Part shown: piece after piece, positions 29,126-32,080 of the stretch | How positions within the stretch are numbered: the stretch's first letter is position 1 | How the letters are laid out: every line of letters starts with the position of its first letter | NCBI GenBank assembly: GCA_016929295.1 | Contig: JAFGJB010000234.1 | Location: 1-49,688 of the forward strand | Direction of reading: 5' to 3' | Source: Candidatus Zhuqueibacterota bacterium | GTDB taxonomy: Bacteria > Zhuqueibacterota > Zhuqueibacteria > Residuimicrobiales > Krinioviventaceae | DNA: 49,688 nt | Program-made: the position numbers and the translations under genes | The notes under the pieces: model-generated | What the model was told of the DNA's origin: nothing | Databases searched by the model: none | The model's input: only the letters and a program-made list of their open reading frames with translations

Positions 29126-30421
29126 TCAACCATGCCGTTTGAAGATGGGATCAAGATTACGAATGGGACAGGGGAAGCCGCCTTGCTGATAGTCACAGTC
29201 ACCCCAGTAGAAACAGTTGACCGAGCATATGGTGTCGCTTTCCTGTAGATTGGCATCAGGATAGTCGACCGATTCGGCACGGAAATTCTGCAATACTTGT
29301 CTCTTCTCTTTGAGGCCCGCCCAGCCACTCTTTTTCAGCATGCCAATGGCAATCAGCTTGGCCAGGCTTTTTGAGGCCTTTGAGCGGGGATTATTGAGCA
29401 CAAACGGCTTCAATTCTTTGACGGATTTGCGGACGCTTTCATCGAATTCGACAAAACCCATGTAATCGACATCGACGTTTAGAATATCGTGCGCAGCTGT
29501 TCGAAACGAATCGCCCTCGCGAATTTCTTTGCCAGAGTGCACCATGTTGAGTATGAGACGAGGATGATAATTCGCCAGATAGTTTTCGATAAAAAAGGAC
29601 GCTTCATCATCAATTTCTTTCACATCCTTGATGATATCGTCCATGGTGAATTGCATCTTTCCCGGTTCAGAATACATATATTGATCAATGATACTCAACA
29701 CAGCGGGCTTTTTGCGAAACTCGCGCACAAAACGGCGCATAATGGCAATTTTTAAAAAATTAAAAGTCTCCTGAATAGCCATCGGATCGGGCGTTGTCAC
29801 CAAGACGCCCTCATCAGCGGCGAGAAAAAAATCGATGACGTTATAGGATGAGCCGGCGCCCAGATCCAGCAAGATATAATCCGCGTCGAGCTGGTGGAGT
29901 TGATGGATAAAGCGGACTTTTTGCGAGAAACGCGGATTAGCCAGCCCAAGGGTGCCGCACGCGCCGCTGATCAATTTCAGGTTATCGACCGGCGTCTCAA
30001 GGCAGATGTCCTCGAGATTTTCCCGCTGCAGCGTGTAAAAGTGATAAAACGTGTATTCGGGTTCCAGTATACCCATGCACGTATGCAGATTGGCGCCGCC
30101 CAGATCAGCATCGACAACAACAACCTGATAATCATATGTGGCCAAGCCGATTCCCAGAGAAGCGCACAGCACGGTCTTGCCGACGCCACCTTTTCCTCCG
30201 CCAATGGCGTACACGGTTTTTCGTCGCTGTTGCTGCTGCTGGCCCTGACTGAACATTGGGCGCAATTCATCAATCTGATTTGCTGCCACCCACTCCTGGG
30301 AGTCCTCGTGATAGACGAGATCGTCTTGAGAAAATTCACCATTGACGACCAGATTTTTAATTTCCCGTCTATTTAACGGTCCCAGCTGCCTGTTATTAAT
30401 CTTTACAAAAACTTCTGACAT
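29126..30421 (-). CDS. GYF_2 plus MinD/ParA-like ATPase with C-terminal Cys4 cluster
   Basis: A 431-residue cytosolic protein with three parts. Residues 1-57 form a GYF_2 (DUF4339) domain (QLGPLNRREI, then DLVYHEDSQEWV). A Gln-rich linker (about 58-68) leads to a deviant Walker A ATPase, GGGKGGVGKT near 74-83, with VVVDADLGGANLH and a Walker B/switch stretch DYILLDLGAGSSYNV. The tail carries CSVNCFYWGDC...GFPC, four Cys at 399, 403, 409 and 418 (Cx3Cx5Cx8C), a likely metal or Fe-S site. MinD/FlhG-type ATPases position machinery at the membrane or poles; no partner system is adjacent. The start is the ATG at 30421, where GAGG is well spaced. A terminator follows. Confidence 0.88.
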   Translation of the reverse strand: MSEVFVKINNRQLGPLNRREIKNLVVNGEFSQDDLVYHEDSQEWVAANQIDELRPMFSQGQQQQQRRKTVYAIGGGKGGVGKTVLCASLGIGLATYDYQVVVVDADLGGANLHTCMGILEPEYTFYHFYTLQRENLEDICLETPVDNLKLISGACGTLGLANPRFSQKVRFIHQLHQLDADYILLDLGAGSSYNVIDFFLAADEGVLVTTPDPMAIQETFNFLKIAIMRRFVREFRKKPAVLSIIDQYMYSEPGKMQFTMDDIIKDVKEIDDEASFFIENYLANYHPRLILNMVHSGKEIREGDSFRTAAHDILNVDVDYMGFVEFDESVRKSVKELKPFVLNNPRSKASKSLAKLIAIGMLKKSGWAGLKEKRQVLQNFRAESVDYPDANLQESDTICSVNCFYWGDCDYQQGGFPCPIRNLDPIFKRHG

Positions 30422-30486
30422 GTTCATGCCTCATCCATCATTGAATCCATTTCAGTTGCTGCATCCGGACAACTCCCATTCACAGC

Positions 30487-30690
30487 TCATGCCTTGCGAA
30501 CGTTTACGGCTTTATCGCCGCGAATGTCACTTTTCACATCAAATTTGATCCGCAAGCCTTCCCGCACATTCTCAGGTCGTAAATTGATCGCCAGATCATC
30601 CGCGTGCAAAAAGAGCTCTTCATCATCGTCGGTCGTGACAAAACCAAAGCCTTTTGCGGCCTGCCAATATTTGACAATTCCAAACTTCAT
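30487..30690 (-). CDS. Cold-shock-domain protein
   Basis: A 67-residue CspA-type nucleic-acid-binding OB fold, acting as RNA chaperone or anti-terminator. RNP1 is KGFGFVTT and RNP2 corresponds to ELFLHADDL; the usual VFVH is changed to LFLH. The first strand has GIVKYWQAAKG, close to the family's G-x-V-K-W-F. The length is standard. The start has GGAGG nine bases upstream. It sits ahead of the MinD-like gene on the same strand (65 bases between), so both could be read from one promoter, but a separate one is not excluded. Confidence 0.9.
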   Translation of the reverse strand: MKFGIVKYWQAAKGFGFVTTDDDEELFLHADDLAINLRPENVREGLRIKFDVKSDIRGDKAVNVRKA

Positions 30691-30907: not shown

Positions 30908-32080
30908 TTATTCTTCCTTTTGCTGTGCTTCATCCTCGCCTGCAACCGCAACCTCAACATCGTCACTTTCACCACTCTCTTCCTCAAGATCTTGACGTTC
31001 CAGCAAGTTCTCTTCATCCTTTCTGTATCTGAGGACGAGAAAAGAGATGGTTGTGCCGGCGGTGAATGTTGAAATCCCGTAGCTGATCACCCATCCACCG
31101 ACAAACAGGAGAGCCAGGGCATAGAAATAGGATGACAGAACGACTGATGCGGGCAGATCGCCGAACGGAATGATGACAAACTGCCGGCTGAAAAACAGAA
31201 ACTCGGAAAAATTCCGATAAACAGATTCGATCACACTTTGAGCTGGCAAGGTCCAGCCTTGCAGCAATGCCTGCCCGTTGTTGGCCAGATTGGCGAAATC
31301 AGCGCCCATGAAGGCGCTCAGCAAGGCATTCATGATCACGACTGACTCTTTGATGAAGAACGCCAGCACGCCCAGCGCCAAAAATGCTAATAGAGCGACG
31401 ATTCCCTCGTAGAAAAGAAAACGCCACGGCTGAGTCCAGGCGACAGAAAAAGCCTGAAATATTGCCTCAAAAGCATCCTCATCGGTGGTAGCGATGATGC
31501 TCGGCACCAGTGTAATCGCGACAATTGTGACGAGCAACAAAAACAAGATCAAAAGCGAACCGAGCACCCAGATGACCGTAAAAAAGCTGACGCCAATCTC
31601 GCCGATGACGGGGATCTTGCCGAGTAAACCGACGACGAGTGCGCCCAAAACAAGCAATCCGATGAGAATGAGCAGTGCCAGGGGGGTTAATACAATAGAG
31701 AAAAATTTATGCAATGAGAACCTGAACGCCTGCTTCCATGAGTAGAATGCGTTGCCCTTCATCGCCATGTAAACAGCTCGTGAAACAGCGGTATTGGTGA
31801 CGAGATACGCCAATAACAGCAAAAAGCTGCCGAGCCCGCTGAGCAGCCAACTGAACCATGGATAACTATCGCCCATCGTGAAAAGACATGGCAACAGGCC
31901 AAATTGAGACCAGGACAGTTTCAGGTCATATCCGGCCAGGACAAGCGCCAGATAAGAGAGAGCCACATAGAAAATATAACCTACGGACAGTCCGATCAAT
32001 TGAATCCACATTCGCTGCAAACCGAGTGCTAAACGCGGCGCAGCGATGATATCACGCCAGTTGAATCTGAGTTTCCGCAT
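30908..32080 (-). CDS. Polytopic membrane protein of unknown function
   Basis: A 390-residue protein with about six to seven long hydrophobic segments and an acidic, low-complexity C-terminal tail (Glu/Asp-rich from about residue 360). The N-terminus (MRKLRFNWRDIIAAPRLALG) looks like an amphipathic lead into the first helix, as in membrane proteins related to YIP1 or DUF975-type groups, but I cannot assign it to one. There is no signal peptide. Start ATG at 32080 with AAGGAG well spaced. It stands between the CNNM gene and the cold-shock gene, all on the minus strand. Confidence 0.75.
   Translation of the reverse strand: MRKLRFNWRDIIAAPRLALGLQRMWIQLIGLSVGYIFYVALSYLALVLAGYDLKLSWSQFGLLPCLFTMGDSYPWFSWLLSGLGSFLLLLAYLVTNTAVSRAVYMAMKGNAFYSWKQAFRFSLHKFFSIVLTPLALLILIGLLVLGALVVGLLGKIPVIGEIGVSFFTVIWVLGSLLILFLLLVTIVAITLVPSIIATTDEDAFEAIFQAFSVAWTQPWRFLFYEGIVALLAFLALGVLAFFIKESVVIMNALLSAFMGADFANLANNGQALLQGWTLPAQSVIESVYRNFSEFLFFSRQFVIIPFGDLPASVVLSSYFYALALLFVGGWVISYGISTFTAGTTISFLVLRYRKDEENLLERQDLEEESGESDDVEVAVAGEDEAQQKEE

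Follow-up and report, generated by a model that had tools for sequence, protein, structure and literature searches.

A GYF_2-MinD/FlhG-like ATPase with a conserved four-cysteine tail in Zhuqueibacterota

In a multi-cargo survey, each MinD/ParA ATPase studied served one cargo, and gene neighbourhood was the first pointer (PMC10241942). The window analysed here is a stretch of 49,688 nucleotides from a bacterium of the former candidate phylum KSB1, now named Zhuqueibacterota (PMC11683472, PMC9012183). It encodes a protein in which an ATPase of the MinD/FlhG kind follows a GYF_2 domain and precedes a tail with four cysteines, and the question raised by this locus is what such a protein would serve and whether the cysteines are a functional part of it. 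No description of this family was found in the literature on GYF with MinD, GltJ or FlhG, nor in that on DUF4339, which we take to be the older name of GYF_2.

Three parts in one reading frame

The gene and its parts are laid out as follows.

29126..30421, minus strand: gene for the GYF_2, MinD/FlhG-like ATPase and Cys4 tail protein (open reading frame of 431 amino acids; Pfam matches)
30257..30421, minus strand: GYF_2 domain, residues 1-55 (PF14237 match at residues 5-53, E 2.5e-9)
29387..30220, minus strand: deviant Walker A ATPase domain, residues 68-345 (PF01656, PF13614, and PF10609; invariant columns; FleN/FlhG as best PDB folds)
29147..29236, minus strand: Cys4 tail, residues 396-425, with C399, C403, C409, C418, W406, and G414-G415 (conservation; tail profile A3)

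The ATG at 30421 is preferred as the start over an alternative in-frame ATG at 30427, 6 nt upstream, because a GAGG motif lies 7 nt ahead of the former. In the resulting 431-amino acid protein, the GYF_2 domain scores 37.2 bits against a Pfam cut-off of 25.8 and is matched in 21/21 aligned orthologues. ParA, CbiA, and AAA_31 matches in Pfam begin at approximately residue 68 and are all above cut-off; the top Pfam ATPase match is PF10609, the NUBPL iron-transfer P-loop NTPase (E 4.7e-15). The Walker A sequence, G76-K-G-G-V-G-K82-T (G76-T83), contains K77, the signature lysine of the deviant class, and is followed by D104/D106 and by the switch II sequence D186-L-G-A-G190. With a KGGxGK[ST] motif bearing the signature lysine, an aspartate after beta-2, and a switch II, the domain belongs to the deviant Walker A (SIMIBI) ATPases, and G76, K77, G78, G79, G81, K82, D106, D186, L187, A189, and G190 are invariant among the 21 aligned orthologues.

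The initial annotation had described three unlike parts in one chain, and the Pfam matches and residue positions bear this out, down to the cysteines at 399, 403, 409, and 418 with the spacing Cx3Cx5Cx8C. Its assignment of the ATPase to the MinD/FlhG kind also agrees with the structure models. The AlphaFold2 model from a single sequence was poor outside the GYF domain, while that from 37 rows gave the ATPase a pLDDT of mostly 90-98; the GYF domain had values of 79-88 across the two models and of 82-88 in the 37-row one. The Cys tail had a pLDDT of 30-52 in the 37-row model, in which just two rows besides the query carry the tail. The top PDB folds found by Foldseek were those of FleN and FlhG (5j1j, 7ejw, 8p53, 4rz2, and 4rz3; target TM-score 0.80-0.89, E 8.8e-21), followed by MinD, and the best matches in a PDB sequence search were likewise FleN and FlhG. 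An amphipathic membrane helix was sought before the tail by hydrophobic moment, and the stretches there are basic, with a moment of 0.4-0.7 and low hydrophobicity.

Conservation and distribution of the four-cysteine tail

Conservation was assessed in an alignment of 46 sequences, comprising the window protein and 45 full-length orthologues of the same class with 43-93% identity to it. A check proposed in the initial annotation was whether all four cysteines are shared by homologues or most of them missing; they are invariant in 46/46. Because the four are identical in every orthologue at 43-93% identity, the pattern is, on sequence grounds, far beyond chance. I398, S400, F404-W406, the G414-G415 pair, and R421 are kept in at least 97% of the same alignment, and the tail has the consensus signature C-S-x2-C-x-Y-W-x2-C-x4-G-G-x-P-C. 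By mean column identity the tail is the most conserved region of the protein (81%, compared with 79% for the ATPase core, 54% for the GYF domain, 54% for residues 346-396, and 32% for the linker), so that a metal-type tail not described before is about as conserved as the ATP site. Between the window gene and a same-genus orthologue, differences at codon positions 1, 2, and 3 number 27, 14, and 159, and strong purifying selection on the protein follows. Among 76 family sequences, all four cysteines are present in 72, none in 3, and part of them in 1; ligands gained or lost together are the pattern expected of a metal site. Judged by its conservation, the Cys4 cluster is functional and behaves as a unit, and metal binding by the tail is likely.

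The window protein was matched in 57/60 genomes including its own, and 52 of the 60, again counting its own, have a near-full-length copy with GYF domain, ATPase, and tail at 34-100% identity. As three genomes in the class do not have it, some members may be able to dispense with it. The related genomes come from an uncultured phylum and appear to have been assembled from metagenomes. A tail profile of 46 columns (A3) likewise matches 57/60 relatives, and all strong matches with an examined reading frame are MinD-like ATPases. Within the phylum, A3 matches 68/82 genomes, divided into 60/63 in the class and 8/19 outside it; it matches 0/61 genomes of Bacteroidota, and the 24 genomes reached through other loci gave three matches, all from the same phylum. 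The tail has no match worth the name in Pfam, none in NCBIfam, and no homologue of known structure in the PDB. Its signature identifies proteins for which the best label from current models would be MinD-like.

Paralogues without the GYF domain keep Cx3Cx5Cx8C. For example, the genome of the window has a second Cys4-tailed MinD-like ATPase that lacks GYF, is 29% identical, and retains the spacing (G000:C145:1944-2996, L002). A divergent third subfamily, approximately 24-26% identical, occurs in three genomes of the order (L228-L230); its alignment begins at about residue 11, inside the GYF region, and its tail reads C-G-x-W-C-x2-[AS]-W-x2-C-N-F-Q-x2-G-x2-C, which also keeps the spacing. Tail-less proteins with GYF_2 and MinD parts are found in the same phylum as well (L094 659-1972 and L088 8702-9883) and offer a natural comparison for the role of the tail. 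In a maximum-likelihood tree the GYF-Cys4 proteins cluster together apart from one divergent row, and the deep order among this family, FlhG, and the homologues outside the phylum is not resolved. Orphan MinD/FlhG-like ATPases of this kind form a family at the level of the phylum, with the GYF-MinD-Cys4 protein as its main type. Nearly all genomes examined in the class encode a member, in most cases with no flagellum and no MinC for it to serve.

Gene neighbourhoods in the window and in relatives

Two genes precede the GYF-MinD gene in the window.

30487..30690, minus strand: cold-shock-domain protein of 67 amino acids, directly upstream (PF00313, E 1.6e-12)
30908..32080, minus strand: multi-pass membrane protein whose C-terminal tail is acidic (no Pfam match)

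Further upstream are CorC-, YbeY-, PgpH-, and PhoH-like genes, and downstream are genes for an LPG_synthase_TM protein and a GT2 protein; the ATPase gene has no min, flh or pil gene next to it, as had been noted from the window. The names of the cold-shock, LPG_synthase_TM, GT2, TrkA, Hsp20, Lon, DksA/TraR, DnaJ, and HTH_25 neighbours come from Pfam, while the remaining names (for example GroES, Tol-Pal, AmiC, and the CorC-, YbeY-, PgpH-, and PhoH-like genes) were read from sequences and are less sure. The cold-shock gene lies upstream on the same strand in 11 loci, and co-transcription is possible. The membrane-protein gene directly precedes the GYF-MinD gene, or an intervening cold-shock gene, on the same strand in 17 loci, which makes its product a candidate partner of the GYF-MinD protein.

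The earlier interpretation is supported in part, namely for the three parts, a cysteine cluster functional by conservation, and the kind of ATPase. It took in the neighbours of the window alone; many relatives have a conserved block with Hsp20 and Lon. In families f2-f5 and in some of f1, GYF-MinD is followed by two, one or no TrkA genes and then by Hsp20, Lon, and a UDP-sugar-pyrophosphorylase-like gene; nearly all lie on the same strand, and the Lon C-terminal domain is 2.5-4.9 kb from the GYF-MinD gene. Three genomes of other families from the rest of the phylum (f14 and f16) have GYF-MinD, a DksA/TraR zinc finger, in some cases TrkA, Hsp20, and Lon. In f8, the distance to Lon is 3.9 kb in one genome and 9.4 kb in a second, where TrkA-TrkA precedes Lon. 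No such linkage is seen in the sublineage of the window (G000, G001, G004, G005, and G007), where Lon is on another contig. The order GYF-MinD, DksA/TraR or TrkA, Hsp20, Lon, which is a new finding here, is apparently ancestral, and the linkage to Hsp20 and Lon is lost in the window's own sublineage. Genomes of about 4-5 Mb have one to three Lon genes each, so a Lon gene within 5 kb across many families is not chance; the neighbourhood counts are not independent of each other, and the proximity may be an old linkage of housekeeping genes. The intergenic gaps, approximately 40-470 bp, are no proof of an operon.

In loci L036-L047 and L233, the MinD-like gene is separated from hsp20-lon by one or two stand-alone TrkA (RCK) genes, and a PgpH-like 7TM-HD gene occurs upstream within the same block; neither TrkH nor KtrB is among the conserved neighbours. 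Other families show other contexts. GroES starts 15-53 bp downstream of the GYF-MinD gene in f6, f10, and f11, and an AmiC-type amidase is directly upstream in f9 and f11. In f10 the gene is ahead of tolQ-tolR-tolA-tolB-pal-cpoB and divergent from MltD, and five f10 loci have a second GYF gene between GYF-MinD and tolQ. The second genes form a reduction series, from a full copy (L066) through a copy without the Cys tail (L071) to GYF_2-only reading frames of 70-79 amino acids (L074, L076, and L077). A conserved ligand of the PPG type, as for GYF domains, was not found among the conserved neighbours, where the sole frequent PPG is that of the Lon Walker A.

Known ATPase families and candidate functions

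By its anatomy the protein should act as a MinD/FlhG-type switch, yet it falls outside both families. The NCBIfam models minD_arch (E 1.7e-24) and minD_bact (E 1.6e-17) match residues 70-225, but the window protein differs from MinD in its two added domains, and identity with MinD was rejected on scores of 63.7 bits against a cut-off of 212.9 (TIGR01968) and 86.3 against 201.75 (TIGR01969). MinC_C was not found in the window's own genome, which is 96% complete, and control genomes match. MinC is present in 2/60 relatives and absent from 58/60, compared with 57/60 that have the Cys4-tail protein. These numbers would suit the main rival to a role in protein quality control, namely an envelope or division positioning ATPase that replaces MinCD in the phylum and marks septal or Tol-Pal sites, its GYF_2 domain binding a membrane partner such as the product of the membrane-protein gene upstream in 17 loci. 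The Tol-Pal genes and divergent MltD in f10 and the AmiC gene in f9 and f11 also fit such a role. However, the two genomes with a true MinD gene after minC (G025 and G038) have the GYF-MinD-Cys4 gene too, the genes downstream in f2-f5, part of f1, f14, and f16 are Hsp20 and Lon and not division genes, and the conserved neighbours yielded no MinE-like partner. A division or envelope role is a serious contender but, on balance, an unlikely one.

FlhG and FleN share with the window protein the ATPase fold, the deviant Walker A, and the D-x-G-A-G switch II, and they have an N-terminal DQAxxLR activation motif. The window family differs in its GYF_2 N-terminus and C-terminal Cys4 tail and in its occurrence in 35 genomes that lack FlhA; a DQAxxL sequence occurs in the first 80 residues of 0/46 orthologues, which have GYF_2 there instead. 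Identity with FlhG/FleN was rejected on the missing motif, on the failure to find FlhA in the window's own genome, and on the coexistence of separate FlhG-type genes: FlhA is present in 22/60 relatives, and in flagellated relatives an FlhG-type gene adjoins flhA alongside the GYF-MinD-Cys4 gene. The GYF-MinD-Cys4 family is independent of flagella and MinC. The same observations speak against an FlhG-like regulator, in which an ATP-controlled dimer would restrain a transcription factor or machine part, as FleN does by binding the AAA+ domain of FleQ, and GYF_2 would stand where FlhG has its FlhF-activating helix. Although FleN and FlhG are the best PDB matches by sequence and fold, and the cold-shock and DksA/TraR neighbours hint at gene regulation, such a regulator seems rather improbable. 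The PF10609 match and four invariant cysteines that may bind metal are points in common with the Mrp/ApbC/NUBPL Fe-S carriers, and a carrier or maturation ATPase of that kind would hold a transferable cluster in its tail. The scores are far under the equivalog cut-offs, however (25.2 against 348 bits for ApbC and 40.4 against 450 for MrpORP, on which identity was rejected), the Cys motif is in a separate tail, and the conserved neighbours include no Fe-S genes, so that Fe-S delivery is a very improbable function.

The conserved Hsp20 and Lon block in many relatives points to protein quality control and not to a division or flagellar machine. The preferred reading is therefore an ATP-switched factor for organisation or targeting in protein quality control or the stress response, to which we give a probability of roughly one in three, the role being read from gene neighbourhood only. 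In addition to the Hsp20/Lon order, the intact ATP-site signature, the Cys4 tail, GroES in f6, f10, and f11, and J-domain neighbours outside the phylum speak for it; against it, the linkage is not universal, and other families have AmiC upstream or Tol-Pal downstream. To our knowledge, the organisation of protein quality control is not a known task of any ATPase in the MinD/ParA family. If the link to Hsp20 and Lon is functional, this task would join those of the MinD/ParA ATPases, and a redox-sensing MinD would become testable.

A quality-control organiser of this type would be expected to bind ATP and form the usual sandwich dimer via K77, K82, and D106, and to follow a SIMIBI-like cycle in which the dimer is on until partner-stimulated hydrolysis turns it off. 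GYF_2 would dock a partner peptide, controlling hydrolysis or place, in keeping with the earlier suggestion that this domain chooses a partner. The four cysteines would hold one metal per chain in a short C-terminal knuckle, Zn2+ being more likely than Fe-S. Oxidation of the Cys4 site is perhaps an input comparable to that in Get3, a deviant Walker A ATPase that carries CXC and CXXC motifs and turns into a holdase when oxidised (PMC11664415), and by this analogy the redox control suggested in the initial annotation may operate through Cys4. The fuller scheme, in which a GYF-steered MinD-type switch gated by metal or redox state at Cys4 delivers or places aggregates or clients at the Hsp20-Lon or GroES machinery, is a long shot. 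Get3/ArsA and the window protein have in common the deviant Walker A, metal-capable cysteines, and a chaperone link, which here is one of gene neighbourhood only; the cysteine motif is a different one, and the analogy is hypothetical. Get3/ArsA identity was rejected at 20.4 against 135 bits (GET3_arsA_TRC40), with a match to the P-loop region, residues 75-106, alone.

Among the matches listed, the nearest outside the phylum are MinD-like ATPases of Bacteriovoracales, Deltaproteobacteria, and Nitrospirota with 35-40% identity over the ATPase, which differ in their reading frames of 315-353 amino acids without GYF_2 and without Cys4. The gene after the nearest outside homologue, in Bacteriovoracales as in a deltaproteobacterium-like genome, encodes a protein that combines a J-domain with a RodZ-type HTH_25 domain (L096 7920-9607, L104 7965-9702, and L100 7872-9625).
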